Shown: positions 2,562 to 46,650 of the stretch, piece after piece | Layout of the letters: every line of letters starts with the position of its first letter | How positions within the stretch are numbered: the first letter of the stretch is position 1 | Source of the DNA: a virus | Virus record (IMG/VR): IMGVR_UViG_3300020196_000070 | Location: 1-46,650 of that record | DNA: 46,650 bases | Direction: 5' to 3' (one strand) | Program-made: the position numbers and the translations under genes | The notes under the pieces: generated by a model | Told to the model about the DNA's origin: nothing | What the model saw: only the letters and a program-made list of their open reading frames with translations | The model's database searches: none

Positions 2562-2867
2562 ATGTTAGCAGCAGGGAGGATTGGGGATCAATACATGAAA
2601 AGATGTAATGTTCCTACTCAAGGAACAGGATCTCCTAATGTCTTTGCAAATGTACTCGCAGTTAGTACCATTGGTAAACAAACTATTCCTTATCAGGAAA
2701 TAGTTCCCTGTCCCACATGCTGCCAAACACATGTGGCACCAGTTCTCACTGGTTCACCAAAAGTTTTTGTGAATAAACTTGCTGTAGGAAGACTATCTTC
2801 ACTCGCACTTGGTATTACAGGAAGTTTTCCTGAAATTACTGGATCTCCAAAAGTGTTTGTGGTATGA
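2562..2867 (+). CDS. PAAR-repeat baseplate spike tip protein (T4 gp5.4-like)
   Basis: A 101-aa protein close in size to T4 gp5.4 and other PAAR proteins. Three PAAR-type motifs are visible: GSPNVFANVLAV (residue 23), GSPKVFVNKLAV (residue 64) and a terminal GSPKVFV (residue 94). A Cys/His cluster (C50, C53, C54, H57) could supply metal ligands, since PAAR tips bind a metal ion at the apex. PAAR proteins form a sharp cone on the central spike of contractile tails and help pierce the host envelope. An alternative Met lies at codon 12, but 2562 is kept because of a late promoter candidate 21 bases upstream. The gene is coupled by ATGA to the giant glycine-rich gene, which suggests the two products act together. 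Confidence 0.85.
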   Translation: MLAAGRIGDQYMKRCNVPTQGTGSPNVFANVLAVSTIGKQTIPYQEIVPCPTCCQTHVAPVLTGSPKVFVNKLAVGRLSSLALGITGSFPEITGSPKVFVV

Positions 2868-9411: not shown

Positions 9412-9816
9412 ATGGCGTTAAAACCGTCAAGATCATATAAGGACTTGAGCTTTACTTTTAAGACAAATCCTTTAAAAAAAGATCTTGTCATTCTAAAAAA
9501 TGAGAATGCTATCAAGCGTTCCTTATTAAATCTTTTCTCTTATAGAAAAGGTGAAAAGTTTTTTAACTCAACTTTTGGGAGTGGTATTCCTGATTTGCTG
9601 TTTGAACCTTTTGATTTTGTAACTGCTGGTTCCATCAAAGAAAATATTATAAATTTGATTCAGTCATATGAACCTAGAGTTAATTTATTAGATATAGCAA
9701 TAAATTTGAATGATGATGAGAATACATATGAAATTGAAATTAATTATTCTATACCAGACATTTCTCCAAAATTTTATAATGTTAATTTGTCTTTAACTTC
9801 CTCAAGCAAAGTATAA
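9412..9816 (+). CDS. 25: Baseplate wedge protein gp25
   Basis: A 134-aa protein, matching the length of T4 gp25 (132 aa). The gp25 family signature is visible: NENAIKRSLLNLFSYRKGEKFFNS is followed by the FGSGIPDLLFEP region (residues about 56-67), then ENIINLIQSYEPRVNLLDI. The conserved EPR joins the wedge core. gp25 sits at the sheath-baseplate junction and primes sheath assembly together with gp6 and gp53. The stop codon is immediately followed by the gp6 start with no gap. A late promoter candidate lies 15-27 bases upstream. Confidence 0.95.
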   Translation: MALKPSRSYKDLSFTFKTNPLKKDLVILKNENAIKRSLLNLFSYRKGEKFFNSTFGSGIPDLLFEPFDFVTAGSIKENIINLIQSYEPRVNLLDIAINLNDDENTYEIEINYSIPDISPKFYNVNLSLTSSSKV

Positions 9817-28400: not shown

Positions 28401-29987
28401 GTAAAACTTCCTATTAACCCAATACAAGTAGATAATACTCTTGGCACTTCTTCACTGTTTGGTGCAAATCAAAAAGTAATTAGAGTAACACAACCAAATC
28501 ATGGAATGAAAGAAGGTGACGTTGTAGTATTATCTAATGTTTCTGGTATTGGAACTCCAGAAAATATTTTTGGAATTCCAGTATCCTTAATTAATGGATT
28601 ACATTCAGTAAGTAATGTTGGTTATGATACATATTGCATTCAAATTGATTCTACTCTTTGGAATACTGCTAATCCAGCCATGACTGGTGCTGGTGGTGGT
28701 GGTGGAAATAATGTTTTTGCAACAACTAATAAAGTATATGAAATTCTGCAATCACAAATTTCTATAGTATCATTCCCATCTTCAAATGTCTCAACTACAA
28801 TTGAAACTGCATATGGTAAATCAGTTGATTCTAGAACAACGAACGAATATACTTTAGCATTACCTGTTACTGTTACTTCAAATGATAATTATTATTTTGA
28901 AGACAGTAGAGTAATTGCTTCAAGAGTAAATGAAGTTTATCGTGCTAATCCAAATTTATTGAATAGAAAATCATCATTATCGTATTTTGTTTCCCTGGAA
29001 ACAACAAAAGATAATGTATCTCCTGTTTTAGATGTAAATAGAGCGAATGTAATCACTATTGGATCTAGAATTGATGCCCCCACAGGTAGTGAAGATCGTT
29101 TTGGTACTAAATCACAAACTTTAATAGTACCAACTAGTTCTGCATATACTATCACAAATATTGCAAAATTTGTTAGGAGTGTTATTATTGATTATAGCAA
29201 TATTAGTGGAGGATCATTTACTAATACTGTTGATAGTAATACGAGACTCACACAAGCAGTCAGTGGTGCATCTGGACAAATTGTAAGTGTAGACTCTATT
29301 AATCGCAAGATCAAAGTGATTGATATTGTTGGTGATTTTGTAGGAAATAATCCTGTAACTCAAGGATCTGTTGTTGCTAATTCTACTACAGTAACTCTTA
29401 AGAGTGGTCAAATTATTGGTTGGGATTCTGGAACTGGTTCACTGAAAATTAAATTAACATCACCAAATCCATTTGTATCTGGTGATATTGTTAATGATAC
29501 AGACGCAGGAACAGTTCCAGTTACTGGTAGAACAGTTTCTAGTGTTTCTGATACTGGAGGATTCTTATTTGTTCCTGAGACAAACTCTTATGGAAGTTCA
29601 TCAGTTTCTAAGTATGTGACTAAAGAGATCACCCTTGATGCTCCAGCTACATCTCTTGATTGTAAGATAACTGCAAATCTTTTTAACAACAGAGATATCA
29701 AGGTTATGTATAAATTAAGACCTGATGGAAGTTCTGAAGATTTCAATAAGATAAATTGGACATATTTTAATCAAACTGGTTATTCCGATAATACTGCGTC
29801 AATTACTCCATCTAATCTAAGAGCTTTCTCATCAAGTTCTGAAGATTTAGATTCTTACATTGAATATAAGTATACTGCAAATAACTTAAGTCCATTCGGT
29901 TCTTTTGCAATCAAAATTGTATTTGTCGGATCAAATCCAGCACTTGCTCCTCGTCTTGAAGATCTTCGCGTAATTGCACACTCATGA
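22413..29987 (+). CDS. Giant DUF4815-like virion structural protein (2524 aa)
   Basis: The N-terminus (NLNKAPYFDDFDPLKNFY, then VLFRPGYSIQSRELTTLQSI) is the signature I associate with the DUF4815 family of phage structural proteins. Other anchors are NPGKAYVRGYEIETTST, a late RDVVDFRPR, the coiled coil RRYTMRDIGKLEKRIEKLEY (about residue 1208) and a C-terminal domain ending LAPRLEDLRVIAHS. In between are several SGA-G-V cassettes, GSGY repeats (about nt 24300-24570 and 27800-28050) and an HGM FCCH-like unit (about 28470). It follows gp8 and is ATGA-coupled to a coiled-coil gene. It is likely a baseplate-peripheral or fibre-network component, perhaps where T4 has gp9-gp10. That equivalence is inference. 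Confidence 0.82.
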   Translation: MPQSTNLNKAPYFDDFDPLKNFYRVLFRPGYSIQSRELTTLQSILQTQIETLAKSKFKQGSVVVPGEIIFDSQYSYVKVSSFTNNLQITDYIGKKMTGATTGIVATVIDATAFTDTDSATLFVKYENSGTSNVQKTFAEGETIIANSPGSPTAIVGITGNVKPTSSPAMGFGSAVTVKEGVYFINGTLVRNNTETVILDKYSNTPSYKVGFVINEQLVTSEEDLSLLDNAQGYSNFSAPGSHRLKITVSLVKRDISSPDQKDFVQLMVIIGGNSQITTPIGNLNFSVNDILAILARRTQDESGDYIVRDFTINLQEHLNNGSNNGLYTTQQGGDENKFAISLNPGKAYVRGYEIETTSTKYIVVDKARDTETQENIFISPLEGSNYTVKNLYSFPDIEGKTQNLTGSGLLSTNPYQEIKLYDTHSDVLYGDTTANLNADSPESEKFWILTVSNISSSGQVAVNTPYSIGSISGEVRVYQQNASQTKAVVLVTKPSSVDFIIGQTITMGSVSGTLMDADRITTSYIGISKTKYLKFLTGNSNANIYDKTSSLYKLGLFGTEYYTKVLCKNPVNFSVGKFVTGQSSGAEGIVEQILSDTNEVVLSRVNGIFQDNETILSELDGTSTPYNIIEEDSTIAYLKPKSFGSGYTTASSLTISIGGTDVTSIIQASNITITNGELRSIRITNAARLSLGNYNSSPVVTVTSNYGGNGCAFEAILNKNNVISYDASYIKSFYGSTTGNPFAGDITSKQDIFNVANGATFNAVEGSYYISADNLASRPDLDLSKGDIIEVTDNAGITRKYLVRFAVREGSGFTSRIYVYGLILSSFTGKVISRVRTKLNGLTGNSLLLPLPNKNVQTTILNPNNTNINYTVQKEFIGNFDASGAFTVTVGTNESFLNYSSDNYILSNPSNGNLIDISGSGVVSYSNSNKSLTITLTGSFASAPFKLIAPVNKSDTIPKTKVLVYSQEYQVATGFSDPVIPLQYADGYTLQAIYMSSSGADATKNDTNVTDRFIFDGGQRDTHYDLARIIRKPDAQIPTNKLLVVYDYFRHIGNTNTGDYFTVDSYTNINYKNIPSFTSSVYGEISLRDVVDFRPRVSDYTGLDTETVLPGYSDKKTTDALKFNGVGSASPAIPLFGTSYDTGYRFYLNRIDALYLTKDGSFTVSKGTPSLNPQVPSEISDGMLLYYFNIPAYTFNIFDIKTKSIDNRRYTMRDIGKLEKRIEKLEYYTVLSLLEQDTFNTQVRDEFGNERFKNGILVDNFEGHNIGNTNSIDYSCSIDMQTGVARPSYYASQTKLIEKNTNDLQRSASGYKKTGELITLPFTEQSTINNPHASTTITINPGRAAKFGGIVTLEPNIDEWKDTTIAPELIVNENSIFDTIQNNIPGSWGTIWNEWQFAWTGSANYSLSNSTSGSQFNSISNNSTSVLKGKTRTRTRNGTQNRLTPYGAATVSANDRVLSTAYNPYMRRNVVKFVARGLEPETRLYAFFDGIDVSSWINPDDVTNITTPFTGIAGYAEKGFGTSIITDINGNISGQFLIPTGYAPVLGKKTFDLNSSVETFFQTSGNQRRFVCGSKSFRLTSSSINSNDNTKVSTFAETEYRAAGLVETSLGSSRFTSISRRSVLNSDTVQLIGSSQVNINQSGLLDPLAQTFAVTGFDEGVFLSSVNLYFQNKLNPTNADTERPVSLYLVETNGGIPTRNILPFSEVSLNSDTILRIKISTTIPQGITLFVGETITGKTSGATGVIKKQSIVSSANTRYNLILSNHNGVSFIAGEEFVVNRSPAITSTSFFIDQDSGIIESIKVNTFGSSYSTVSGATTVTINGDNGGTFGSVATASPKIYGGKIYEINITNSGSGYYTPPTVTIIGGDGLATAESILRITNPAVKMGVATSTDASVKTTFKFKSPVYLENNATYAFVVSTPSSDYKLYSSRVGSPLLNSIIVSSNQPNVGSLFKSQNSSAWVEDEIEDLKFNINRCVFNTSTTSTIQLTNDVIGSVKLPINPIQVDNTLGTSSLFGANQKVIRVTQPNHGMKEGDVVVLSNVSGIGTPENIFGIPVSLINGLHSVSNVGYDTYCIQIDSTLWNTANPAMTGAGGGGGNNVFATTNKVYEILQSQISIVSFPSSNVSTTIETAYGKSVDSRTTNEYTLALPVTVTSNDNYYFEDSRVIASRVNEVYRANPNLLNRKSSLSYFVSLETTKDNVSPVLDVNRANVITIGSRIDAPTGSEDRFGTKSQTLIVPTSSAYTITNIAKFVRSVIIDYSNISGGSFTNTVDSNTRLTQAVSGASGQIVSVDSINRKIKVIDIVGDFVGNNPVTQGSVVANSTTVTLKSGQIIGWDSGTGSLKIKLTSPNPFVSGDIVNDTDAGTVPVTGRTVSSVSDTGGFLFVPETNSYGSSSVSKYVTKEITLDAPATSLDCKITANLFNNRDIKVMYKLRPDGSSEDFNKINWTYFNQTGYSDNTASITPSNLRAFSSSSEDLDSYIEYKYTANNLSPFGSFAIKIVFVGSNPALAPRLEDLRVIAHS

Positions 29988-32391: not shown

Positions 32392-33576
32392 ATGAGAAAG
32401 AAAAAATTATTGTGGATTGGTGATTGTGTTATTCCGAGTGGATTTGGTAGAGTTTCTGAATCTATCCTGACAAGGATTCATAAAGAATTTGATACTCATG
32501 TTATGGGTATCAACTATTTTGGGCAAGTACATACCTTTGACTTTAAGATTTACCAAGCATCAAAGAAGGGTGGTTCCCAAGATCCCTATGGTTTCAATTA
32601 TATTGACGAACTTTATAATGAAATTAAACCTGACATTATTGTTGCTTTCAATGATGTTTGGATTATTAAATTTTATTGGGATATTCTAAAAAAATATAAA
32701 GAGACTGATGATTTTAAATTTGTAGCGTACTTCCCTATTGATGGCGGAGGATGGTTCCCTTCTGTTGTTTCATTCTTAAATGATTTTGATCTTTCAATTA
32801 CTTATACTGATTTCGGCAAACAAGTAATGAAAGATGCTGGATATACTGGACGTATTGAAACACTAGAGCATGGTGTTGATACTGACATTTTTTTCAGAAA
32901 GAATAAACAGGAATGTAGAGAATTGATTGGTCAAATGAAAAAGGATGATTTTATTGTCTTTAATGGCAATAGAAACCAACCTCGTAAAAGAATTGATTTG
33001 ACTATTATAGCATTTGCCAAGTTTGCAGTTGGCAAACCAAATGCAAAGTTATATCTCCATATGGGGACTAAAGATTGTGGATGGGATATTATTCCACTGT
33101 TCAATGTTGAGATGGAAAGGAATGGTCTTGATCCTCAGGGAAAATTATATCTTTCTGGGTTAGAAATGACACCAGAAAAAAATACAATTACTCCACAAGT
33201 CTTGAACGTCATTTATAATTCATGTGATGTTGGAGTAAATACTTCAGAGGGTGAAGGATGGGGTCTGGTGCCATTTGAAATGGCAGCAACTGGGTGCCCA
33301 CAAGTTCTTCCCGATTATGCAGCAAGTGCTGAACTTTTTGCTAATTGCGGTGAACTTGCTGAAATTATTTTCATGGGTAAAGATGTCAACTATGGTATTG
33401 ACAGAGCATATGTATCTGTTGATAGTGTTGTTGAAAAACTGAATAAATTATATTCAGATAAAAAGTATTATGCTGAAAAAGCAAAAGCATGTTCTACTAT
33501 GGCAAGCGATCCCAGATATACTTGGGATGTAATTGCCAACAAAATGCTTGGTTATTTAACTAATTTAGGAGACTAA
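32392..33576 (+). CDS. GT-B glycosyltransferase (GT4-like)
   Basis: A 394-aa protein of usual size for the GT4/GT1 superfamily. The N-terminal Rossmann half starts KKKLLWIGDCVIPSGFGRVS with a glycine-rich loop (PSGFGR). The C-terminal half has the nucleotide-sugar site: FNGNRNQPRKRID (R198-K199-R200) and the EX7E motif SEGEGWGLVPFE (E288 and E296). The donor and acceptor cannot be read from sequence. Possible targets are virion proteins, phage DNA or host surface glycans. The gene stands alone among structural genes behind a sigma-70 promoter and shares its end with the ribosome binding site of the next gene. No signal peptide or membrane anchor is present, so it is cytoplasmic. Confidence 0.9.
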   Translation: MRKKKLLWIGDCVIPSGFGRVSESILTRIHKEFDTHVMGINYFGQVHTFDFKIYQASKKGGSQDPYGFNYIDELYNEIKPDIIVAFNDVWIIKFYWDILKKYKETDDFKFVAYFPIDGGGWFPSVVSFLNDFDLSITYTDFGKQVMKDAGYTGRIETLEHGVDTDIFFRKNKQECRELIGQMKKDDFIVFNGNRNQPRKRIDLTIIAFAKFAVGKPNAKLYLHMGTKDCGWDIIPLFNVEMERNGLDPQGKLYLSGLEMTPEKNTITPQVLNVIYNSCDVGVNTSEGEGWGLVPFEMAATGCPQVLPDYAASAELFANCGELAEIIFMGKDVNYGIDRAYVSVDSVVEKLNKLYSDKKYYAEKAKACSTMASDPRYTWDVIANKMLGYLTNLGD

Positions 33577-33811: not shown

Positions 33812-34144
33812 ATGTCTGCTATAACGATTAACATAGTAATAGAGCAGGGGTCTGATTTTTCAGCGACCTTTACGATTAAGACTGCAGATAATTCATATCT
33901 CAATCTTCTCGGTTTTACCGCTGAAAGTAAAATGAAGAAGAGTTATTATACTTCTACTTCAGTTCCGTTAAGTGTTTCATTCACTAACAGACCAGAAGGA
34001 GTTATTACATTATCGTTACCTGCTAGTGTAACCACTACGCTCAGTCCTAAAAGATATGTTTATGATATTATTTTGACATCTCCTAGTGGAGTAAAAACAA
34101 GAGTAATTGAAGGAATTGCAACTGTAACACCAGGAGTAACATAG
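33812..34144 (+). CDS. Small Ig-like baseplate or fibre protein (110 aa)
   Basis: A 110-aa beta-rich protein. It contains IVIEQGSDFSATFTIKTADN, then LNLLGFTAESKMKKSYYT and RYVYDIILTSPSGVKTRVIEG. This succession (GSDF, L.GFTAESK, Y.YD) resembles the N-terminal Ig-like domain of BppU-type baseplate proteins and small marine-phage homologues. The family link is by eye. It probably attaches other components to the tail. The stop TAG shares one base with the GTG start of the next gene. The late promoter in the terminator upstream is its likely source of transcripts. Confidence 0.72.
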   Translation: MSAITINIVIEQGSDFSATFTIKTADNSYLNLLGFTAESKMKKSYYTSTSVPLSVSFTNRPEGVITLSLPASVTTTLSPKRYVYDIILTSPSGVKTRVIEGIATVTPGVT

Positions 34145-34848
34145 TGTCAAATTATCAGGTAACGCTAAACCCTACAAATTATAATGTAGTTCAAGCAAGT
34201 CCCGATTTATATAAAGTTGGACTTAATTTTGAACCACCATCAAAAGGCATTCAATATCAAAATTTACTTTTAGATAATATTTCAGCTCAGTTTGACTGTG
34301 TACGAAAAACTTTTGACATAAAAGTAAATGGAGTTCCATATTTTCCCCTGAATGATCAACAGTTAATTATATCTGTTAATAATGTTATTTTACAACCAGG
34401 AGTAGGATATTCTATTTCTGGTAGTACTATTACTTTTGCTACAGCGCCTTGCAATACACAATTTTTTGGTATTGGTATGGCAAACACTGCAGACTTAACC
34501 CGAACTATTAATTTTGTTGTTGATTATGGTTCTTTGCCTATGACTATTGGCGACAAAGGATCTCTATCAATTGATGTTACTGGTACAATTCAATCATGGT
34601 TAATTGTTGCGGATAAAATAGGAAATTTAGTTGTTGATATAAAAAAATGCTCTTTTAATGATTATCCTAATCTTGTTAGTATATGCGGATCAAATAGACC
34701 TACTTTAAGTAGTCAGAATAAAAATACTGATGATATTTTAACGGGATGGAATAGAACATTAAATGCTGGTGATATTTTAAACTATGAAGTTATAAATACC
34801 AGTACTGTCATCAATAAATTCTCTATTGCTTTGAAAGTAAAATTATAA
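34144..34848 (+). CDS. Tail fibre-like protein with VDGV and C-terminal receptor-type domain (234 aa)
   Basis: The start is GTG at 34144, overlapping the previous stop by one base; no in-frame ATG serves as well. Residues 45-110 form a module starting FDCVRKTFDIKVNG, with LIISVNNVILQPGVGYSI and TAPCNTQFFGIGM, also found twice in the 3032-aa protein. The C-terminal domain (TIQSWLIVADKIGNLVVDI, RPTLSSQNKN, WNRTLNAGDILNYEV, IALKVKL) is a family common at the end of phage fibre and tail proteins. It is probably a peripheral fibre or collar component. It is co-transcribed with the 110-aa gene. Confidence 0.78.
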   Translation: MSNYQVTLNPTNYNVVQASPDLYKVGLNFEPPSKGIQYQNLLLDNISAQFDCVRKTFDIKVNGVPYFPLNDQQLIISVNNVILQPGVGYSISGSTITFATAPCNTQFFGIGMANTADLTRTINFVVDYGSLPMTIGDKGSLSIDVTGTIQSWLIVADKIGNLVVDIKKCSFNDYPNLVSICGSNRPTLSSQNKNTDDILTGWNRTLNAGDILNYEVINTSTVINKFSIALKVKL

Positions 34849-34896: not shown

Positions 34897-36075
34897 ATGG
34901 CACTTTTAGTACCTAATATTGGTGAGGTAGAATCACTTCGTTATCTGTTGAATTCTACTCATAATATCCCAAGAAATTTAATTCTGAAACTTTTTACGTC
35001 AAACACCACACCAGACGAAGCAGATGTTCCTTCGGCAACTGCTTATTACGAGCCATATGCTGATGGTAATCAAAACACTTATGGCACTGCACCAAATACA
35101 GGTTATCCATCAGTTATCAATAATCGTGCGGATCAGAACTATGCTGGACAATATGGTATTCTGCTCAATGGTTCGCGTTGGGCGATCACAACTGCTTCAG
35201 ATCCAGTAGCTACTACAACTAATTCAAGTGGCGCACAGGATTCATACGAAATCACAGTATCAGGTCTCTCAGGAACTGTCAGTGTTGGTAACACTGTTAC
35301 TGGTACTGGTATCGCAGCTGGCGCTAAAGTATCAAGAGTTTCTGGTAATACTATAATTCTTACGGTTAAAAATTCTGGTGCAGTAAGTGGTGTAATTAAC
35401 TTCGCTGGTGGAGTTACTACTGCTACTTATCCAGAACAAACTTTCACATTCCAAGGCGCTGCTGGTAATGTTTATGGTTATTATCTGGTAAGAGCAAACA
35501 ATATGCCTGTGGCACTCCATGGTTATGAGGGTGGCGCAACTATTGCTGCTGGAACAGTTCTGAATAAAGGTGATAATACTAATCCTTGTATCGGCGTTAT
35601 CGGAAATAGTTACATTACTCTGCCTAACGTAGCATCAATTATGGATGACATTACGGTAGGTCAAGTAGTTGGCGGCAACAACGCTGTACCAGCTGGAACT
35701 AAGATCATCGGTATTGATCTTCTGCAAAGAATTATTCACCTTAGTAATGCATTAACTGATAACGTTCAGGTTGCAACTGACTCATCCATCACTCTGGAGT
35801 TCTCCAAAGTAACTGCAACTGCACATGGTCTTGTTGCTGGTGATGTTATTTACATCGCTCGTGCTGCTGGTAATACTACAACCACTGCAGGAACATATAC
35901 TGTATTCTCAGTCCCTAGTGCAAACGAGTTCAATCTTACTCCTGCACTTGATGGTCTTGGAGCTGCAACTCTTTACAGCAGCATCATGTTTGCTGAAAGA
36001 TTCACTAATGGTCCATACCCAATTCAAAACCAGGGTGACCAAATTAAGATTACTCTGAATGTTAGCCTTGACTGA
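34897..36075 (+). CDS. Virion structural protein with late-expression signals (392 aa)
   Basis: A 392-aa protein with a conserved-looking N-terminus (MALLVPNIGEVESLRYLLNS, then NLILKLFTSNTTP) and C-terminus (MFAERFTNGPYPIQNQGDQI, then KITLNVSLD) that I associate with a family of marine phage virion proteins. The middle carries two similar beta cassettes (VTGTGIAAGAKVSRVSGNTI and VVGGNNAVPAGTKIIGID) and an FCCH-like unit, TATAHGLVAGDVIYI. It is framed by a perfect late promoter, GGAGG nine bases before the ATG, and a strong terminator. Its codons are more often C-ending than its neighbours', which suggests abundant expression. It may be a repeated decoration or tail component, but the exact position in the particle is unknown. 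Confidence 0.8.
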   Translation: MALLVPNIGEVESLRYLLNSTHNIPRNLILKLFTSNTTPDEADVPSATAYYEPYADGNQNTYGTAPNTGYPSVINNRADQNYAGQYGILLNGSRWAITTASDPVATTTNSSGAQDSYEITVSGLSGTVSVGNTVTGTGIAAGAKVSRVSGNTIILTVKNSGAVSGVINFAGGVTTATYPEQTFTFQGAAGNVYGYYLVRANNMPVALHGYEGGATIAAGTVLNKGDNTNPCIGVIGNSYITLPNVASIMDDITVGQVVGGNNAVPAGTKIIGIDLLQRIIHLSNALTDNVQVATDSSITLEFSKVTATAHGLVAGDVIYIARAAGNTTTTAGTYTVFSVPSANEFNLTPALDGLGAATLYSSIMFAERFTNGPYPIQNQGDQIKITLNVSLD

Positions 36076-36150: not shown

Positions 36151-39100
36151 ATGAACACATTCCAATACAACTCAACCTCTATAAACTATTATACCACTCA
36201 AGATTTAGGAAGTATAGGTGATACTCCAACATCATTAGTGGATGATGGTACAGTTTATAGTGAGTTAGAACCCTCTGCAGATTTTATCGTAACAAATGAT
36301 TATATTGTTAGTGATTACGCTATTGAGCCAAGTTATGGATTTATAGTATTTACCGAAACTACATATCCTTTCGGTGGTTTAAATATTTCAAATGCAACAA
36401 AAGTCTCTGCATCTGTTAAATTTGTTGCTGCTCAACCTCAAATAAAACTTGACGGTACTTATAAAGTAAAACTAAGATCTGCTTGGGTTGGTTCAGGTAG
36501 TCTGTTTGAAATTGCTGGGGGTCAAGAAAGAATTGTTGCACCTTGGGTTGGATCCTCAGGACCGCTCCGAGTATCAGGAAGTGCTGCATCGTCAGCGGTT
36601 TATCAATATAACAACTCAGCAATTGCTGTATTTTCTTCGGGTGACTATGGAAGTGTTTCCTCTACAAACAATACTTCTAGTAATTATGGACAAATTACAG
36701 AAGTTACATCTGGCGAAATAGATCAAGGATCTATTGTAATAACCGACATTACATATCCTTATGGACTGTTCTCGTTTAATGGTAATTTCTCAAATCTTAC
36801 TCTTGCATTTGGGCATCAATCTTCAGGCATTATTGGTGTTTCTGGTTCAGCATCTGTAATATTCAACGAACCAACACCACAAATTTACTTAGTAAAAACT
36901 AAGGATAATATACGAGTACGTGGTTCTGCAAATGAAGCGTTTGTCAGAAAAACTTATGATGGATTTATTAATTTTGGAATATCTGATAAAGCAAATGAAA
37001 ATGTGTTATTTACTTATAATGAATTTTCTATTTCATATTTCAATATTTTAGATTCAGGATCTATAACTACCTCAGGTTCTACTATTGATTATGGATATAT
37101 TATTAATTCTGGAGGATCAATAATATATGGATATACATTTAATACTCAAACAATATATCCATATGGAACTCTTGTTTCACAAGGAGGATTTAGTAATCTC
37201 CTGAGATCTTTTGGTCATCAATCACAAGGATCAATATCACTTTCTGGTTCTGCAGTTACTGCATTGCAAGAACCAACGCCACAGATTTATAAAATCACAA
37301 GCACTGATTTATTTAAAATTTCTGGAACAGTACAAAATAAATTTAGCAAAGCACCATATAATGGATTTGGTTCACTGTATTCATTTACAGGATCAACTGA
37401 GAATGTAACCTTTGACTATAATACATCTTCTGTAAGTGTTTACAGTGAAACTAATTATGGATCATTAGGATCAACCACAACCACACAAGATTATGGTACT
37501 GTAACTCAAACTAATGTTGGCGATATTAATTACGGTGACGTAACTTCTTCTCAAACTAATTATGCTTTTGGTTCTCTGAATATCAATGGATCTAAAACAG
37601 AAAGATTTATTTACGGAAAATATTCGGGTTCTGGCAATCTATTTGCATTTAAAGGTTTATCAGAATCTAAACAATCATCTTATAAATCAACATATTTATT
37701 TGAACTCAGAGGAACGGGACATAATTCATTTACTAGACCATTTATTGGTTTTGGATCTCTATTCCATGTTGGTGATAGAATTGAAAGAGCAACATATGCA
37801 TATAACTCATCTGCAATAGTTGAATATTCAGAATCTGATTATGGATTAGTTACTACTTCTGGATCTACAATTGACCATGGCTTGATCAATCAAGTAGTAA
37901 ATCAAGGTGAAATTAATTATGGATTTATCAACACTGGTTTAACTGAGTATGCTACTAATCCATTATTCACATTTACTGGTAACGCAACTGTTCAGTACAA
38001 ACCAATTTTTGCACAAACTGGTTCTGGTGGATTTAAAGTTCATCATCAACCATCTCCTACTGATACAAGATTTATTCCTTGGTGGAGAGGATATGGAGAA
38101 TTTATTGTTTCTAACAGAATTATTCCAGATGCTTTCTCTAGACCTTACATTGGTAAGGGAAGATTGTTCAGTATTGGCGATAAAGTTGAGAGTGTAACAT
38201 ATGATTATAATTCTACTTCCATTGAATATTTCAATACAGAAAACTATGGAACTATAACCACATCAGGAACTTCTGTAGATCTTGGTCATGTAAATGAAGA
38301 TAATACTGCTGTAATTGATTATTCAAGCATAGTTAATCTTGATATTGTTTATCCTCTCAATGTCCTTTATAACTTCTCTGGAGAGGGTATAGGACAATTT
38401 ATTCGTGGTCCTTATAGAGGAAGAGGTGGAATTCAATTTGCTGGTTATCATTCTATTCGTCAAAGTGATGCATGGCGGGGCAATTTAAATGTAAGAATTA
38501 CTGGTTCTGCAGACGAAAAGAATACAGAAAAATATGTTGGATCTGGATCGCTGTTCCACATTGGCGACAGAGTTGAAAAAGCAACATTCTCTTATAATTC
38601 TTCATCAGTATCTGATTATGATGCATCTGATTATGGTCTTATTACTGCATCAGGAACACCTGTTGATCTTGGTCAAATTACCCAGTCTGCTTCTGGGGGA
38701 GAGATTAATTATGGTAATGTAATTGATCTTAATATTACATATCCATTTGGTCTGTTCAAAGTTAGCGGTGACTCTGATGATCGCTGGATCCAAGTGTTCA
38801 CCAAAGTTGGATCTGGATCTCTCTTTGAATTCAATGGCGCAACAGAAGCATTCTCTGCACAGATTCCAGAGAATACACTTCTTTATAGTATTTCTGGTGG
38901 TGGTGCGGTTGAAAGTAAAAATAACTCTTATGTAGGTTTTGGATCTCTATTCCATGTTGGGGATAGAATTGAAAGAGCGACATTCTCCTATAATACTTCA
39001 TCTATAGTTGTATATGAACCCGAAGTAGATTATGGATTAGTCACTACTTCTGGTTCTACTATTGATTACGGTTTAATTAATCAAGTAACTGATGGCGGCG

Positions 39101-42100
39101 AAATTGATTATGGTTCAGTTACTTTACATGATTATGATTATCCTGTAAATGTATTGTTTAAATTTGGTAGTGCTGCATTTACTGAACTTAAACCTTCCTT
39201 TAATTTCAAAGGAAAAGGAATAATCAATATTCAATCTGATCGTACCTTTGTCAGATTTAGACCACATTGGAGATCAGTTGGTGGATTATTTGTTGATGGT
39301 TCTGCAAATCAATCTGAATCAAAATCTTATGTTGCTTCAGGTTCACTGTTCCACATTGGCGACAAAGTTGAGAAAAGAACATTCTCTTATAATTCTTCAT
39401 CAGTATCTGATTATGATGAACTTGATTATGGTCTTATTACTGCGTCAGGAACACCTATTGATCTGGGTCAGATTACTCAGTCTACTTTTGGTGGAGAGGT
39501 TAATTATGGTAATGTAATTAATCTTGATATCACATATCCATTTGGTCTATTCAAAGTTAACGGTAACTCTGATGATCGTTGGATTCAAGTATTTACTAAG
39601 GTTGGATCTGGATCACTGTTTGAATTTAATGGTCTCACTGAGTCATTCTCCGCAAGGATTCCAGAGAATACATTCCTTTATAATGTTTCTGGTAACGCAA
39701 TTGAGAGTAGAAATAACTCTTATGTAGGTTTTGGATCTCTGTTCCATATTGGTGACAGAGTTGAAAAAGCAACGTTCTCTTATAATTCTTCATCAGTATC
39801 TGATTATGATGAACTTGATTATGGTCTTATTACTGCATCAGGATTAACTAATGATTATGGATTAATTACCAAAGTATCGTCTGGTGGTGAAATTGATTAT
39901 GGTGCGATAATTAATCTTGATATTACATATCCATTTGGTCTATTCAAAGTTAGTGGTAACTCTGATGATCGTTGGATTCAAGTATTTACTAAGATTGGAT
40001 CTGGATCACTGTTTGAATTCACTGGCGCAACAGAAGCATTCTCTGCACAGACTCCAGAGAATACATTCCTTTATAATGTTTCTGGTAACGCAATTGAAAG
40101 TAGAAATAACTCTTATGTAGGTTTTGGATCTCTATTTGAAGTAGGCGATAAAGTTGAGAGAGTAACTTATAATTATAATGAGTCTTCAATAGTTGCTTAT
40201 GAAACTGAAGTTGACTATGGTTCTGTAACAACTTCGGGAATAACTATAGATCTTGGTTATGTAAATCAAATAGCAACTGATGGTGAAATTGATTATGGTT
40301 CAGTTACTTTATATGATTATGATTATCCAGTAAATGTACTCTTTAAATTTACTGGGGCGGCAGAGGATCAATATAAACCAGCATTTGCTCATAAAGGTTC
40401 TGGTAGATTCACAATTGCTTCTGATCGCACCTTTGTCAGATTTAGACCACATTGGAGATCAGTTGGTGGATTATTTGTTGATGGTACATTATCAGAATCA
40501 CGTAACAATTCTTATGTCGCTTCAGGTTCACTGTTCCACATTGGCGACAGAGTTGAAAAAGCAACGTTCTCCTATAACTCTTCATCAGTATCTGATTATG
40601 ACTCATTTGATTATGGTTTTGTTACTACATCAGGAACAATTATTGACCATGGATATGTAACTCAGACAGCAACTGGTGGTGAAGTTGATCTTGGTAATGT
40701 AATTGATCTTAATATTACATATCCATTTGGTCTGTTCAAAGTTAGCGGTGACTCTGATGATCGCTGGATCCAAGTATTCACCAAAGTTGGATCTGGATCA
40801 CTGTTTGAATTTAATGGTCTCACCGAGTCCTTCTCTGCACGGATTCCAGAGAATACATTGCTTTATAATGTTTCTGGTAACGCTAACGAATCACGTAATA
40901 AGTCTTATGTTGCTTCAGGTTCACTGTTCCACATTGGTGACAGAATTGAGAAAAGAACATTCTCTTATAATTCTTCATCAGTATCTGAATATGATGCATC
41001 TGATTATGGTCTTATTACTGCATCAGGAACAATTATTGACAATGGATATGTAACTCAAACAGCAACTAGTGGTGAAATTGATTATGGTGCGATAATTAAT
41101 CTTGACATCACATATCCATTTGGTCTATTCAAAGTTAACGGTAACTCTGATGATCGCTGGATTCAAGTATTCACCAAAGTTGGATCTGGTTCACTATTTG
41201 CTATTGGTAATGCTGCAGAAGCATTCTCTGCACAGACTCCAGAGAATACATTCCTTTATAATGTTTCTGGTAACGCTAACGAATCACGTAATAAGTCTTA
41301 TGTTGCTTCAGGTTCACTGTTCCACATTGGTGACAGAGTTGAGAGAAGAACCTTCTCATATAATACATCATCTGAAATTGATGCAGTCAATGAAGTTGAT
41401 TATGGTAATCTTTCTAATTCAACACAAAATCTTGATAATGGTTTAATAACCAGTAATGCTGATGGTGGTGAAATTGATTATGGTTCTGTAATTAATACTA
41501 TCGGTAGTGAAAAACCATTTGGATTATTCAGAATTAGTGGTATTGCTGTTACACCATTTGAAAGATCCTATTATGGATCTGGTTCACTATTTGCTATTGG
41601 TAATGCTGCAGAAGCATTCTCTGCACAGACTCCAGAGAATACATTCCTTTATACATTCTTTGGTTCTGCTATAACTCCTCGTACCAGAGAATTTATTGGT
41701 TCTGGCGATGCAGTAAAAGTCACTGGTAATGTTATAGAAAGACATACTGAATCTTATGTTGGTTATGTAAGTCTTGTATTTGAAGAAAGATTCCCTGCAG
41801 CGTCTGAAGCAAATACAGAATCTTATGTTGGTAAAGGAAATATCAGACTTTCAACTGGCAGATTCCCTGAGTTCCGTAACTACAGACCAACACCTCGTTA
41901 TGTTAGTGCAATCCATGGAAATATTGGTGGTACACTTAATGTTTCTGGTGATGGAATTACAAAACCAATTAGAGTTTATACTAAGGTTGGTTCTGGTGTA
42001 GAATTTATTAGTGGTTATATCATTGAGAAACAAACAGATTCTTGGTATGGAACTGGCAAGATCAATGTTTCTGGAAATGGTGATACTGATAGAGCAAGAG

Positions 42101-43677
42101 CATACTCATCTACAGGAAGATTCTCTGTTCTTAAGGGTGTTGCAGAAGCATTCTCTGCACAGACCCCAGAAAATACATTCCTTTATACATTCTCTGGTTC
42201 TGCGGTAGAGAAAAATACAGAGAAATACAGAGGTTCTGGTTCAGCATTCTCATTTGGAACTGCAACGGAAACTATCCTTATTTCTGCTGCAGTATCCACA
42301 GCACTGTTCAAAGTTTCTGGCGCCGCAATTCCAGTTATTTCACTCTTACATTATGGCTCTGGTTTCCTGTTCAATTATGGAGAATCCACAAGCAAAGTAG
42401 TATTTAACCCTGTTGAAAATACTGCTTTATATCAAATTAGTGGTTCTGGGACACTCAAGAAATCTAATAAGCATGATGGTTCTGGTCAGATTGATATCAC
42501 TGGAACTCTTATTGAAAAAAATACTGAGAATTACCTAGGAACAGGAAATATTCTAACTGTTGGTTCAAGTGCTGCAGCAGTAGCATTTAACCCAACTGAA
42601 AATGTTCAACTGTTTAATGTATATGGTTCTGCTATTGAATCTCACACCGAAAGATATATCAGCACAGGTTCAGCACAAATTTCTGGAAGTGCAATTGAGA
42701 AGAACACTGAGAATTATGTTGGTACTGGCAATATCTTCTCATTCTTGCAGTCAGAAAGCAAAGTATCATTTAATCCATCAGAAGAAACTATACTCTTCAG
42801 ATTTACTGGTTCTGCAACAGAGAAGAATACTGAGAATTACATCGGCACAGGTTCGCTGTTCGCATTTAATGAAACTAGTGAGTCTGTAGTATTTGCTATA
42901 TCAGCAAATGTTCAACTCTTCAGATTCTCTGGTTCAGCGATTGAGAAGAACACTGAGAATTATGTTGGTACTGGCAATATCTTTACTGTTGGTGAGAAGA
43001 TTGAATCTAGAACAGTAATTGAAAAAGCATCAGGTAATATTAATCTTACTGGTTACATTCAGGAAAAATATAGTAAGGCACCATATCAAGGTTCAGGTTC
43101 TCTGTTTGCATTCCAAGGTGCTGCAGAATCTAAGACTTCTAACCCACCAGAAGAAGCGGCACTCTTTAAATTTACTGGATCTGCGGTTGAGAAAAATACA
43201 GAGAATTATAAGGGTTCTGGTAATGCAACAATTTCTGGCAATGTTGCTGCTAAGTTCACGAGATCCTATGTTGGTAAAGGAAATATTTCCTTCGGTACTA
43301 ATACCGCTGTCATAGCGTTTGTTGCACAAACTCCTGAAAATACTATTCTGTTTAGATTTAATGGGGAATCTAAATTCAAGTATATCTCCAGATACCCTGG
43401 TTCGGGTACAGAATTTATTTCTGGAATCGGAATTGAGAAGCAAACAGATTCTTATCGTGGTAAAGGATCTCTGTTTGGAATCGGTAATGCATCTATCAAC
43501 AGACTTGTTGTTGAGGAAACTGATACTAGAACTTCTCTGTTCAGAATTAGTGGTATTGAACGCAATAGTTATTCAAGAATTTCTGTTACGAATAAATTTA
43601 ATATTGAAATTAGTGGTGCTTCAAAAGATATTGTTATTCTCTTTAGCCCCGCAAGAATATTCGGAAGTATAATATAA
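36151..43677 (+). CDS. Giant repeat-built structural protein (2508 aa)
   Basis: After a short N-terminus (MNTFQYNSTSINYYTTQDLG) nearly the whole protein is built of repeats. Units of about 131-132 residues each contain GSLFHIGDRVEKATFSYNS, paired DYGLIT/IDYG strands and YPFGLFKVSG. They occur in two classes and in a 395-residue higher-order period. From about residue 2180, shorter 41-residue units (SAIEKNTENYVGTGNIF) take over, and the end is ISGASKDIVILFSPARIFGS. The many short strands with regular Gly/Asp turns suggest a beta-solenoid or a stack of beta domains. The gene follows a strong terminator and has GAGGG five bases before the ATG. It is likely a long fibre or tail-associated filament. 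I recognise no enzymatic motif, and the function is inferred. Confidence 0.82.
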   Translation: MNTFQYNSTSINYYTTQDLGSIGDTPTSLVDDGTVYSELEPSADFIVTNDYIVSDYAIEPSYGFIVFTETTYPFGGLNISNATKVSASVKFVAAQPQIKLDGTYKVKLRSAWVGSGSLFEIAGGQERIVAPWVGSSGPLRVSGSAASSAVYQYNNSAIAVFSSGDYGSVSSTNNTSSNYGQITEVTSGEIDQGSIVITDITYPYGLFSFNGNFSNLTLAFGHQSSGIIGVSGSASVIFNEPTPQIYLVKTKDNIRVRGSANEAFVRKTYDGFINFGISDKANENVLFTYNEFSISYFNILDSGSITTSGSTIDYGYIINSGGSIIYGYTFNTQTIYPYGTLVSQGGFSNLLRSFGHQSQGSISLSGSAVTALQEPTPQIYKITSTDLFKISGTVQNKFSKAPYNGFGSLYSFTGSTENVTFDYNTSSVSVYSETNYGSLGSTTTTQDYGTVTQTNVGDINYGDVTSSQTNYAFGSLNINGSKTERFIYGKYSGSGNLFAFKGLSESKQSSYKSTYLFELRGTGHNSFTRPFIGFGSLFHVGDRIERATYAYNSSAIVEYSESDYGLVTTSGSTIDHGLINQVVNQGEINYGFINTGLTEYATNPLFTFTGNATVQYKPIFAQTGSGGFKVHHQPSPTDTRFIPWWRGYGEFIVSNRIIPDAFSRPYIGKGRLFSIGDKVESVTYDYNSTSIEYFNTENYGTITTSGTSVDLGHVNEDNTAVIDYSSIVNLDIVYPLNVLYNFSGEGIGQFIRGPYRGRGGIQFAGYHSIRQSDAWRGNLNVRITGSADEKNTEKYVGSGSLFHIGDRVEKATFSYNSSSVSDYDASDYGLITASGTPVDLGQITQSASGGEINYGNVIDLNITYPFGLFKVSGDSDDRWIQVFTKVGSGSLFEFNGATEAFSAQIPENTLLYSISGGGAVESKNNSYVGFGSLFHVGDRIERATFSYNTSSIVVYEPEVDYGLVTTSGSTIDYGLINQVTDGGEIDYGSVTLHDYDYPVNVLFKFGSAAFTELKPSFNFKGKGIINIQSDRTFVRFRPHWRSVGGLFVDGSANQSESKSYVASGSLFHIGDKVEKRTFSYNSSSVSDYDELDYGLITASGTPIDLGQITQSTFGGEVNYGNVINLDITYPFGLFKVNGNSDDRWIQVFTKVGSGSLFEFNGLTESFSARIPENTFLYNVSGNAIESRNNSYVGFGSLFHIGDRVEKATFSYNSSSVSDYDELDYGLITASGLTNDYGLITKVSSGGEIDYGAIINLDITYPFGLFKVSGNSDDRWIQVFTKIGSGSLFEFTGATEAFSAQTPENTFLYNVSGNAIESRNNSYVGFGSLFEVGDKVERVTYNYNESSIVAYETEVDYGSVTTSGITIDLGYVNQIATDGEIDYGSVTLYDYDYPVNVLFKFTGAAEDQYKPAFAHKGSGRFTIASDRTFVRFRPHWRSVGGLFVDGTLSESRNNSYVASGSLFHIGDRVEKATFSYNSSSVSDYDSFDYGFVTTSGTIIDHGYVTQTATGGEVDLGNVIDLNITYPFGLFKVSGDSDDRWIQVFTKVGSGSLFEFNGLTESFSARIPENTLLYNVSGNANESRNKSYVASGSLFHIGDRIEKRTFSYNSSSVSEYDASDYGLITASGTIIDNGYVTQTATSGEIDYGAIINLDITYPFGLFKVNGNSDDRWIQVFTKVGSGSLFAIGNAAEAFSAQTPENTFLYNVSGNANESRNKSYVASGSLFHIGDRVERRTFSYNTSSEIDAVNEVDYGNLSNSTQNLDNGLITSNADGGEIDYGSVINTIGSEKPFGLFRISGIAVTPFERSYYGSGSLFAIGNAAEAFSAQTPENTFLYTFFGSAITPRTREFIGSGDAVKVTGNVIERHTESYVGYVSLVFEERFPAASEANTESYVGKGNIRLSTGRFPEFRNYRPTPRYVSAIHGNIGGTLNVSGDGITKPIRVYTKVGSGVEFISGYIIEKQTDSWYGTGKINVSGNGDTDRARAYSSTGRFSVLKGVAEAFSAQTPENTFLYTFSGSAVEKNTEKYRGSGSAFSFGTATETILISAAVSTALFKVSGAAIPVISLLHYGSGFLFNYGESTSKVVFNPVENTALYQISGSGTLKKSNKHDGSGQIDITGTLIEKNTENYLGTGNILTVGSSAAAVAFNPTENVQLFNVYGSAIESHTERYISTGSAQISGSAIEKNTENYVGTGNIFSFLQSESKVSFNPSEETILFRFTGSATEKNTENYIGTGSLFAFNETSESVVFAISANVQLFRFSGSAIEKNTENYVGTGNIFTVGEKIESRTVIEKASGNINLTGYIQEKYSKAPYQGSGSLFAFQGAAESKTSNPPEEAALFKFTGSAVEKNTENYKGSGNATISGNVAAKFTRSYVGKGNISFGTNTAVIAFVAQTPENTILFRFNGESKFKYISRYPGSGTEFISGIGIEKQTDSYRGKGSLFGIGNASINRLVVEETDTRTSLFRISGIERNSYSRISVTNKFNIEISGASKDIVILFSPARIFGSII
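37750..41420 (+). repeat. ~131-codon repeats with a 1185-base higher-order period
   Basis: The KVSGDSDDRW-type anchor (class A) begins at 38761, 39556, 39949, 40741 and 41134. The class B anchor (SDRTFVRFRPHWRSVGG, from CGT/CGC) is at 39241 and 40426, exactly 1185 bases apart. Class A spacing alternates about 795 and 393, giving an A-B-A super-unit of about 395 codons. Copies are nearly identical at the DNA level (for example 38761 onward against 40741 onward), so the amplification looks recent. More diverged units extend upstream to about 36490. Confidence 0.92.
42694..43062 (+). repeat. 41-codon tandem repeats
   Basis: Units start at 42694, 42817 and 42940, exactly 123 bases apart. Each begins SA(I/T)EKNTENY(V/I)GTG and ends LFRF(T/S)G or the equivalent. 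The stretch ATTGAGAAGAACACTGAGAA is identical in the first and third. Looser copies flank these on both sides. Confidence 0.88.
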
Positions 43678-43720: not shown

Positions 43721-43909
43721 ATGACAACCCAAGTACAATTCCGAAGAGGAACTACCATTCAACATCAAACGTTCACTGGTGCTGAAGGTGAAATTACAGT
43801 TGACACCGACAAAAATACTGCCATCGTTCATGATGGTCAGAAAGCGGGTGGGCATGAGTTAGCACAAAAAACACTTGTAGTAGCCCTGTCCGTTGGGATG
43901 GGTTGGTAA
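43721..43909 (+). CDS. Stand-alone fibre N-terminal domain (Mtd-N-like, 62 aa)
   Basis: A 62-aa protein: TTQVQFRRGTTIQHQTFTGA, then EGEITVDTDKNTAIVHDGQK and AGGHELAQK. This is the short FRRGTxxQHxxFTGAEGE...VHDG domain normally found at the N-terminus of long fibre or receptor-binding proteins (major tropism determinant N-terminal type), where it docks the fibre to the tail. Here the product stops 14 residues after the domain (TLVVALSVGMGW). It is either a functional free adaptor or the stump of a fibre gene. The late promoter at 43685-43692 lies just upstream. The next gene begins 38 bases after the stop, in a different frame. Confidence 0.82.
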   Translation: MTTQVQFRRGTTIQHQTFTGAEGEITVDTDKNTAIVHDGQKAGGHELAQKTLVVALSVGMGW

Positions 43910-43947: not shown

Positions 43948-46650
43948 ATGGCAAAGCATTTAGTACAAAAATACACTTTCGTTCCTTCACTGGACACCGT
44001 AATCATTGACGGTCATGTAGCACACAAAAGATTACTGCTGATCACTAACGTAACGACAGGTGTTGTCCTTTATAATTTTGCTGATGAACAAGCGGGTGGC
44101 ACTGTTACTTATAATGATTCTACTGAATCTACAACAGTAGTTCTTGATAAAGATTGTAACTTAATGAGTGCTACAGACACTCTGCAAATTTTTTATGAAC
44201 AGGATCATGTTGAAATAGAACCGTCTGAAACATATGTTGACCCCGTTTCAAAGTTCCGTGTTTCAACGCCACAAAACCTGATTGATACTGACTTTGAATA
44301 TGGTCCACAGGCTTCTAAGTGGGAAACTCTTCAATTAATTAACCAAATCCCATCATTCTTTTCAAGTACAGCTGATACTACTATTCCATTTATTGAGAAA
44401 GTAGAATCAACTTCAAATAGTGAACTGATTACTATTACTACTACATTTGAGCATAACTTAACTACTGGTACGCCAATTACTGTAACTGGTCTTTCAAGTG
44501 TTACAGCAGAAGGAACTTATCTAATTCAATCTGTTCCTACTACTAAAACCTTTACATATAAAGCAAGGGCAAAACAAATATCCACTAGAGAACTTCAGGG
44601 TACTTACACCTCTATTATTCCTGGTCAGTTTTTCCAAGGTTCACAAATTGCTGTTGATGAAGCAATTGGTATTGTGTCAGATACTTTTACAAAAGTTGTA
44701 ACAAGAATCGCAGTAATAGAACTTACACTTACATCAGCTCCTCATTATACTTGGGCAGTTGGAGCAACCATTAGTTCACCATCTGGTGCCTCTGGTACTA
44801 TAACTAAAATTGATGGTTTAGTAATTAGTGTTATAACTGCTTCTGGTTCTTTTGGCAATGGTAATACTCTATCTGCAACTGGATCTTCTTTCACTAGGAC
44901 AATTGCTACTGTAGGCTCCACCAGCAATAAATTCTTCATTGATGGAGTGCAACAACCAGCTTTAAATTTAAATAGAAAGGCAATTTATATTTTTGATATT
45001 TCCAGTCCTACTATAACTGGTCATACTTTTGAAATTGGTACTGCAACTGATGGGTCACCATATACCACTTTTGTTTATTCACAAGGGACTGCTGGAACTC
45101 CTGGTGCTTTTATAAGACTTTATATAACTCAGGGAACGCCAAATTTACTTACATATTATTGCACACTACATACTGGCATGGGCGGTGATCTGCCAGTAGT
45201 TACTGCTACGGAATCTAAAATTTATTTGACAACAACAAACGAACATGGTTTTGCAGACAATACTAATTTTTACTTTGTAAATAGTATTGCACCAAAAATT
45301 CTTGAAGTTACTGATCCAACTGCAACAGCGCCTGATGGCAGACCTTTTATTGATACTGTAAATTCAATCGTAGTACAAAATGTTCCTGTAGCAACTGAAA
45401 CTATTCCTTACAACAATGAATCAACATATACCTTAAGGTTTGGTGCTAATGATATTGATTATGCCGCAAATACTATTACTATTCCAAATCACGGTTTACG
45501 AAATAGTTATGCAGTGCTCTATTATCCTGCACCTGGAGATACTCCAATTGGTGGTTTAAATAGAATGCTTGTATATTATGCAGAAAGAATTAATGATAAT
45601 ACTATTAGATTACATGATTCTCAGAGAATGAATATTCTCAAGGATCTTCAAACTGGTGGTACATTTAATTATGGTAAACATACTTTAGGTTTGGTATATA
45701 ACTGCTATAGAGAATACAAGCAATGGGGTGATTTCTATGCTTACTATTATACTTATTATTGGAACTGGCAAGGAACATATTCAGGACATGATTTTGCAAA
45801 CGTAAATGGCACCTTTGGATTAGGTGGTCAGGCGTGGGATAACGTTGCATACTTCTCATGTGCAAGACCTGGATATGGTGGACATAACCAATACATATAT
45901 AACTGGACTTGGTATAACGTCTTTGGAACTTCCTGGAGAACATATGGATATCACCTGCAAACATTACCTTTAGGTACTACTGCAATTTATCAGGGTTCTT
46001 ATGATTTTATCACTGACAATAATAATTTTGGAGTAAATGGTAATAATAATGGTGGCCAAGGCCATGGATATACCGTAGGTGGATATAATGATGTAAACGG
46101 AAGAACTTATTGGACATCTACCTTCTCGGCTAATTTCATGAACTCCGCATACTTGAGATTGTATGGTAATGAATATTACTATTGGGCATATCAAGGTGAT
46201 ACCAATGGTTGGTGGGCAGGAAGAAATGGATATAGCAATAGTAATGATAGATATTTCGGTGATGTTAGTTCTGATGGTAGTACCAACATGTACTTCATGT
46301 TGATGAAGAGAAACACAAGTACTAATGATTCATTCTTCAAACAAGATCATGGATTTGAAACAAATAATCTCATTACGCTGACAGTAACTTCAGGCAATAA
46401 TATTAGATATTGGAATGATAATGCAGGCAGTACTGCTACTTTAGGTACAGGCGCACAATTCTATGTAGAAAAAATTGATAGCACTAGATGGAGAATTAAA
46501 CCTGGAGTAAATAATACTCCATATAGACTAGCTGCTGCTGATGGTAATTACAGTATGGCTGCTACTATTATTAATCCTTTCAAGAATAGTATCTACATTG
46601 GCAATAATCAATTCTCAAATAACGAACTTATTCTTTATACTTTTGCCTCT
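43948..46650 (+). CDS. Large virion structural protein with cupredoxin-like segment (3' truncated)
   Basis: The frame from the ATG at 43948 is open through all 901 codons to the window edge, so the gene is incomplete at its 3' end. It begins MAKHLVQKYTFVPSLDTVII. The motif FRVSTPQNLIDTDFEYGPQ is one I associate with widely shared structural proteins of marine T4-like phages. An FCCH-like unit (TTFEHNLTTGTPITVTGL) and an SGA-G-T cassette follow. Residues about 344-420 resemble a cupredoxin fold, with H359 and YYCTLHTGMGG giving C405, H408 and M411. The sequence after residue 590 is rich in Tyr, Trp, Asn and Gly (YAYYYTYYWNWQG), typical of a receptor-facing domain. It shares the late promoter at 43685 with the 62-aa gene. 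Confidence 0.85.
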   Translation, partial: MAKHLVQKYTFVPSLDTVIIDGHVAHKRLLLITNVTTGVVLYNFADEQAGGTVTYNDSTESTTVVLDKDCNLMSATDTLQIFYEQDHVEIEPSETYVDPVSKFRVSTPQNLIDTDFEYGPQASKWETLQLINQIPSFFSSTADTTIPFIEKVESTSNSELITITTTFEHNLTTGTPITVTGLSSVTAEGTYLIQSVPTTKTFTYKARAKQISTRELQGTYTSIIPGQFFQGSQIAVDEAIGIVSDTFTKVVTRIAVIELTLTSAPHYTWAVGATISSPSGASGTITKIDGLVISVITASGSFGNGNTLSATGSSFTRTIATVGSTSNKFFIDGVQQPALNLNRKAIYIFDISSPTITGHTFEIGTATDGSPYTTFVYSQGTAGTPGAFIRLYITQGTPNLLTYYCTLHTGMGGDLPVVTATESKIYLTTTNEHGFADNTNFYFVNSIAPKILEVTDPTATAPDGRPFIDTVNSIVVQNVPVATETIPYNNESTYTLRFGANDIDYAANTITIPNHGLRNSYAVLYYPAPGDTPIGGLNRMLVYYAERINDNTIRLHDSQRMNILKDLQTGGTFNYGKHTLGLVYNCYREYKQWGDFYAYYYTYYWNWQGTYSGHDFANVNGTFGLGGQAWDNVAYFSCARPGYGGHNQYIYNWTWYNVFGTSWRTYGYHLQTLPLGTTAIYQGSYDFITDNNNFGVNGNNNGGQGHGYTVGGYNDVNGRTYWTSTFSANFMNSAYLRLYGNEYYYWAYQGDTNGWWAGRNGYSNSNDRYFGDVSSDGSTNMYFMLMKRNTSTNDSFFKQDHGFETNNLITLTVTSGNNIRYWNDNAGSTATLGTGAQFYVEKIDSTRWRIKPGVNNTPYRLAAADGNYSMAATIINPFKNSIYIGNNQFSNNELILYTFAS

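Follow-up and report, generated by a model that had tools for sequence, protein, structure and literature searches.

The long tail fibre proteins of bacteriophage T4 are gp34 and gp37. In pelagimyophages the region between VrlC and gp14 has been described as a host recognition cluster, larger than in cyanomyophages, which carries tail fibres and glycosyltransferases (PMC7029224). The virion proteome of S-SM1 was also reported, and the accessible part of that account yielded nothing on the orthologue of the gene studied here (PMC3037559). We analysed a stretch of 46,650 nucleotides of viral DNA (IMG/VR record IMGVR_UViG_3300020196_000070, hereafter the window), which belongs to a T4-like marine phage. 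Its baseplate/tail-fibre block contains, at 36151-43677 on the plus strand, a gene for a 2508-aa repeat protein that is a candidate fibre shaft. We consider it likely that its product forms all or part of a long and modular adsorption fibre, probably rich in beta structure, which would evolve in length by unequal recombination and which ends in a conserved tail.

The location of the gene, within a block of fibre and baseplate genes, agrees with that of a T4-type long tail fibre. Upstream were found a baseplate wedge family protein (9412-9816), which we take to be gp25 from its place, gp6, also of a baseplate wedge family (9817-11670), a 3032-aa structural/baseplate protein (11672-20770), gp8 (20812-22374) and a DUF4815 protein (22413-29987). 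The 3032-aa protein appears VrlC-like by its place beside gp8, and may be compared with the 'virulence associated protein' of S-CAM1. A 717-aa upstream protein has partial tail fibre and structural matches, and a glycosyltransferase (PHROG 2170) is encoded inside the tail fibre block at 32392-33576. On the plus strand there follow an LtfC-like protein (33812-34144), a member of the virion-structural family PHROG 10330 (234 aa; 34144-34848) and the 392-aa neighbour treated below. The LtfC-like protein matches PHROG 3304 (L-shaped tail fibre assembly) with an E-value of 3.8e-24, behind its best match, PHROG 1084 of unknown function (E 1.3e-28), and scores 24.7 bits against Pfam LtfC, below the cut-off of 27. 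Downstream of the repeat gene are a 62-aa protein (43721-43909, plus strand) with an Mtd_N (major tropism determinant N-terminal) domain (PF18454, 56.2 bits) and a large virion-structural protein, which is complete, with 1896 aa, in the related contig L003. Within this structural protein, 43948-46650 encodes a stretch rich in aromatic residues, glycine and asparagine. At the other end of the window, an 1820-aa protein (2864-8326) matches immunoglobulin-like and glycine-rich domains as well as head/virion-structural PHROGs.

In S-CAM1, S-CAM3 and S-SSM7 the gene stands beside the same neighbour and the genes that follow it are labelled tail protein and tail fibre; other S-CAM1 records label the following genes hoc and polymorphic membrane protein. 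With respect to the phage itself, the gp23 of an 85-kb sister contig shares up to 70% identity with cyanophages, and with a Methylophilales phage it shares 68%. A search for Photo_RC genes (psbA/psbD) gave no match in any of 15 records, all but one of which are shorter than 100 kb, and a 132-kb relative, possibly incomplete, has none. The lack of psbA/psbD is unusual for a marine T4-like cyanophage.

The reading frame of the repeat gene is open over its 2508 codons, as the preliminary description had it. Serine, glycine and threonine together account for 32% of the residues, with no cysteine and a single methionine, and BLASTP against 15 other proteins of the window region revealed no similarity. 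Self-BLASTP of each orthologue returned no off-diagonal matches, contrary to direct scoring of the diagonals, and the repeat offsets given here were taken from the direct scores. When every self-diagonal of the window protein was scored, offset 395 spanned residues 917-1417 with 70% identity (score 1807) and offset 131 spanned residues 1048-1733 with 47% identity (score 1282), while the best diagonals of five shuffled versions of the protein scored 42-58. Units were located by the pattern G-S/R-L-F followed by GD and E, and they start at residues 533, 668, 797, 929, 1062, 1193, 1324, 1457 and 1588, with a tenth at 1719, the spacings being 135, 129, 132, 133, 131, 131, 133, 131 and 131. The unit length of 129-135 aa obtained in this way bears out the units of about 131 residues described earlier.

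The ten consecutive units occupy residues 533-1849 and, ordered by identity, read B C A B A A B A A A', so that the exact 395-codon block is B-A-A, present twice. All of them lie on the plus strand. The first copy (38935-40119) comprises B at 38935-39333 and A at 39334-39726 and 39727-40119, and the second (40120-41304) comprises B at 40120-40518 and A at 40519-40911 and 40912-41304. The super-period of exactly 1185 bases claimed for the array is therefore confirmed by the B units at 38935 and 40120 and likewise by the two A units that follow each, and the B anchor used in that claim corresponds to a 57-base exact match at 39244/40429. An older B-C-A block of 396 codons precedes the two B-A-A blocks, and is made up of u0, of old B type (37747-38151; 50-52% identity to the two later B units), u1, of a diverged type termed C (38152-38538; 30-40% identity to the eight other units compared), and u2, of A type (38539-38934). 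The array closes with u9, of a diverged A' type (41305-41697; 107 bits, 56% identity to u8). The older, diverged units that had been noted next to the array were also recovered, since an HMM of nine units found three weaker ones of about 130 aa at residues 143-265, 275-400 and 405-532 (36577-37746, plus strand; 53-75 bits). Together with the ten of the array, 13 units thus occupy most of residues 143-1849. The hierarchy of repeats initially proposed is real.

Contrary to the initial proposal, the copies proved neither nearly identical nor recently amplified. Protein identity was 75-84% among A units, 70% for the later pair of B units and 41-47% between these A and B units, and codon-aligned DNA identity was 0.796-0.865 for A-A and 0.729 for B-B. 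Among fourfold sites whose amino acid was shared, the two B units had the same base at 26 of 46, a proportion that the best A-B pairs equalled or exceeded; agreement among A units was 69-89%. The B-B fourfold sites look saturated; therefore, the duplication of the block is old. In this regard, the A units are more alike than the B units that were copied along with them. Conversion between copies predicts a patchy local identity, and for 10 of 11 pairs of units windowed identity had a higher variance than was obtained by shuffling the codon columns (p of 0.005 or less; the exception was u2-u4, p 0.31), although uneven selection along the unit could contribute to the patchiness. The longest exact run was also in excess in 7 of the 11 pairs (p below 0.05), reaching up to 84 bases compared with about 28 expected. 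These patches of later similarity suggest gene conversion as their cause. In addition, contig L003 has three bases, at 38559, 38565 and 38586, that are unlike those of the window and agree with the paralogue 1188 bases downstream; all three fall in a run of 73 bases that L003 shares exactly with this paralogue (38551-38623). Two further contigs of the same phage, L002 and L004, agree with the window at these sites. The cluster stems either from conversion within the population or from a chimera made during assembly.

The family, which the preliminary description did not recognise, can now be named, although the name brings no described function: the profile of PHROG 11522 matches across much of the window protein (E 3.1e-139, in 15 stretches). 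Matches of the repeat protein to Pfam TBC1D23_C, DUF1285_N, KAR9 and ETM were all below the cut-offs and were discarded. Members were present in 15 records of the phage collection, all from Synechococcus phages (S-CAM1, S-CAM3, S-SSM7, S-SSM6a and Sf-FS3). S-SCSM2R has a more distant copy at the same place (BLASTP E 2.9e-9, with no unit match), labelled 'TolB', and otherwise the orthologues are annotated as hypothetical proteins in the records examined. A DNA search of phage records for near-identity to positions 22001-46650 gave no match. A survey of titles and the openings of abstracts, mainly of freely accessible papers, revealed no literature on repeat arrays in this protein.

In the window, S-CAM1 and S-CAM3 the repeat gene lies directly downstream of a PHROG 10467 gene, an arrangement that we chose ourselves as a mark of the family. 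In the window this gene encodes the 392-aa neighbour (34897-36075, plus strand), a candidate conserved partner. A search of viral contigs gave 560 relatives of it. We retained the best 80, and among these its identity is 67-78% in the nearer relatives and 42-51% in the rest. In the nearer relatives the repeat protein reaches only about 30-35%. The best 80 loci and two annotated phages yielded 38 non-identical complete downstream proteins of 468-3083 aa, that of the window included, after removal of identical proteins (L030, L031, L063, L083 and L084), truncated ORFs and the extra loci of the window phage. S-CAM3, Sf-FS3 and S-SSM7 raised the total to 41, with a unit match in 32, a count that is biased towards the window because the unit HMM was built from its own units. 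The nine proteins with no unit match were those of S-SCSM2R and S-SSM7 and seven short ones with no detectable similarity. These seven (L062, L071, L072, L073, L078, L079 and L081; 468-978 aa) follow the 392-aa gene and have neither units nor tail. In at least one relative the family gene is displaced: a 2379-residue frame with the tail (L112) lies on the same contig as L063, further downstream. It must also be noted that a 6.9-kb contig of the Prochlorococcus single-cell genome AG-402-C22 (L121) carries the 392-aa neighbour followed by a 1565-residue frame with the family tail, perhaps a phage caught together with its host.

Among orthologues, the leading offsets include 131-132, 139, 246, 253-255, 210-211 and 221, with 82-84 in C-terminal parts. 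We compared 152 units from 27 proteins, leaving out near-duplicates (L019, L026, L047, L049 and L056) and partial units, and asked for each unit where its closest relative was found, a measure that depends on how close the sampled relatives are. It lay in the protein of origin for 9 of 13 units from the window protein, 10 of 12 from L011 and 7 of 8 from L064, while eight more such units were spread over five further proteins (34 of 152 overall). The remaining 19 of the 27 proteins, three of them with a single unit, had none, and they probably inherited their arrays in common with relatives in the sample.

Lengths were compared in 24 pairs more than 70% identical in global alignment, leaving out the seven short downstream ORFs. 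L039 and L041 are 91.5% identical and differ by 83 aa in length, L060 and L069 by insertions of 210 and 82 aa, and L019 and L034 by insertions of 150 and 132 aa plus smaller ones. Other insertions did not correspond clearly to whole units, for example those of 165 and 189 aa in L029 and that of 27 aa in L055, and in several pairs no insertion reached 8 aa. When the inserted segments of six pairs were scored against the rest of their own protein, 11 of 12 were above 30 shuffles, the 78-aa segment of L019 barely so (65 vs 53); the exception was the 27-aa segment of L055. Such self-like insertions would be expected from gain and loss of repeats, though any piece of a repeat protein might score in this way. 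The repeated unequal recombination proposed for the array is thus supported by the units closest to their own protein and by the several related pairs that differ by self-like insertions. The variable length predicted with it was observed between species but not within the three species sampled. All six sequences of S-CAM1 encode 2130 aa, with 5-18 DNA differences per pair, and the three of S-CAM3 encode 2558 aa, with 16-33 differences per pair. Of the four sequences of the window phage, the window and two complete contigs share one length, and the fourth ends four residues before the stop.

The C-terminal section (41698-43674, plus strand) has a glycine period of 10.25/20.5 residues, with Fourier peaks (17.2 and 9.5) that both exceed the 99% level of shuffled sequences, which is 8.5. 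A period of 20.25-20.75 was among the top ones in four other members and above the shuffle level in two of them (L013 and L041), with S-CAM1 just under it (8.8 vs 8.9) and L010 below. In the distant loci L108-L120, some of them in contigs of 149-251 kb, the top period was 20-20.75 in 9 of 13, a count made without a shuffle control.

The protein ends in the sequence LFSPARIFGSII (43639-43674, plus strand), which follows loosely the form P-x-R-x-F/Y-x-x-I/V-I/V. For counting, a looser pattern was used, in which P or G is followed across short gaps by R or Q, by F or Y and finally by two I/V; it was devised after inspection of the tails. It was found in 37 of 40 family frames identified by a C-terminal HMM, compared with none of the 447 other frames at least 200 aa long, and in 42 of 45 listed members, among which there were 29 different 12-residue tails (the seven short downstream ORFs being left out). 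Mean pairwise identity of the last 12 residues was 60%, compared with 38% elsewhere in the C-terminal alignment. A looser tail form also occurs in the distant members L108, L110 and L113, in contigs of 149-251 kb.

The order of the genes, the composition of the protein and its repeats all speak for a fibre shaft or part of one. We infer a filament from gene order and composition; its beta structure, its place in the virion and a tie between the number of units and physical length are likewise putative. The shaft would consist of units of about 131 residues, here grouped in a super-unit of 395, followed by elements of about 20.5 residues. T4 long fibres extend by about 0.05-0.06 nm per residue; were the same to hold here, a 131-aa unit would span about 7 nm and all 2508 residues about 130-150 nm. 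Unequal recombination would add and remove units, so that the reach of the fibre would evolve, and gene conversion would partly homogenise the copies within one gene. Most of the protein would vary fast with the short C-terminal tail held constant, probably because this tail docks to a conserved partner or guides assembly, and we interpret it as a putative docking or assembly peptide. AlphaFold gave a mean pLDDT of 30.1 for the 395-aa super-unit (44 rows) and 54.1 for one unit with its flanks (143 rows), in both cases with no run of three strand residues. Intertwined trimers often fail to model from a single chain; therefore, these models argue neither for nor against a fibre. Searches of solved structures with the super-unit and C-terminal profiles gave no PDB sequence match up to an E-value of 1.

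The main rival to the fibre shaft is a multivalent adhesin or rope, that is, a whisker- or rope-like decoration attached to the baseplate or neck, or an adhesin with glycan-binding repeats, in which the number of units would tune avidity and not reach. The position of the gene between baseplate genes and further structural genes would suit it, the two types of unit, A and B, might serve as distinct binding modules, and in S-SCSM2R the 392-aa neighbour is labelled, by annotation only, 'tail fiber rope protein'. Given that no match to a carbohydrate-binding family was obtained and that the LtfC-like neighbour points to a fibre, we regard this rival as unlikely. The arrays might also reflect neutral turnover of repeats in a weakly constrained protein, with no adaptive meaning, as the fast divergence and the lineage-specific periods would allow. 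This seems decidedly improbable in view of the long open frame kept in relatives, the spaced glycines, the conserved tail and the constancy of length within the sampled species.

A protein that is long, repetitive and variable in length also recalls a tape measure setting the length of another structure. Tape measures are helical and their genes lie beside those of the tube, while the sequence studied here is rich in glycine, serine and threonine and its locus is one of baseplate and fibre genes; by composition and locus it is not a long helical protein beside tail tube genes, and we give this explanation very little credence. The preliminary description had itself considered that the repeats might be an artefact of assembly. 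The contigs are metagenomic, and the three clustered bases of L003 that match the paralogue 1188 bases downstream could come from a chimera. However, the longest exact repeat is 84 bases, and the array is matched gap-free by three further IMG/VR contigs, which show 5, 9 and 5 base differences from the window over 15.3, 20.5 and 17.5 kb, so that four contigs are concordant (the comparison with L004 stops at 43663, and one of its five differences is at 43662). Moreover, cultured S-CAM1 and S-CAM3 also have internal repeats, though weaker ones (offset 246 with 48% identity and offset 735 with 60%, respectively). Artefact or collapse of the repeats is consequently unlikely, and that the array as such is an artefact is hardly believable.

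Extended tentatively, and with some doubt on our part, the fibre reading would take in a whole family of such modular fibres among marine T4-like phages, in which repeat number would set reach, unequal recombination and gene conversion would make it diverge between species and the C-terminal peptide would keep the docking site fixed; reach and attachment would then evolve separately. The cultured phages S-CAM1 (2130 aa), S-CAM3 (2558 aa) and S-SSM7 (1529 aa) carry natural length variants of the gene on Synechococcus hosts, which makes it possible to measure directly how gene length relates to fibre length and to adsorption. The reading would also suggest a role, open to test, for a gene that is among the largest of these phages to lack annotation.

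With respect to known systems, the locus belongs to the same kind of hypervariable region downstream of VrlC as the host recognition cluster of pelagimyophages and cyanomyophages, whose description, in its accessible part, makes no mention of this protein or of repeat arrays (PMC7029224). It resembles T5-type L-shaped tail fibres in having an LtfC-like gene three genes upstream of the repeat gene, but the repeat protein matches no L-shaped fibre family. The likeness to T4 gp34 and gp37 is in kind only, as long fibre proteins in the structural region of T4-like phages: the window protein has no Pfam, PHROG or PDB sequence match to such fibres and, unlike in these, the extreme C-terminus is the best conserved end of its family. 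The PHROG 11522 orthologues of S-CAM1 and S-CAM3, AOV57604.1 and AOV58599.1, share with the window the PHROG 10467-type gene directly upstream, the internal repeats and the C-terminal tail, and differ from it in sequence (about 23-25% identity) and in their main offsets, which are 246 and 735, respectively, and not 131.
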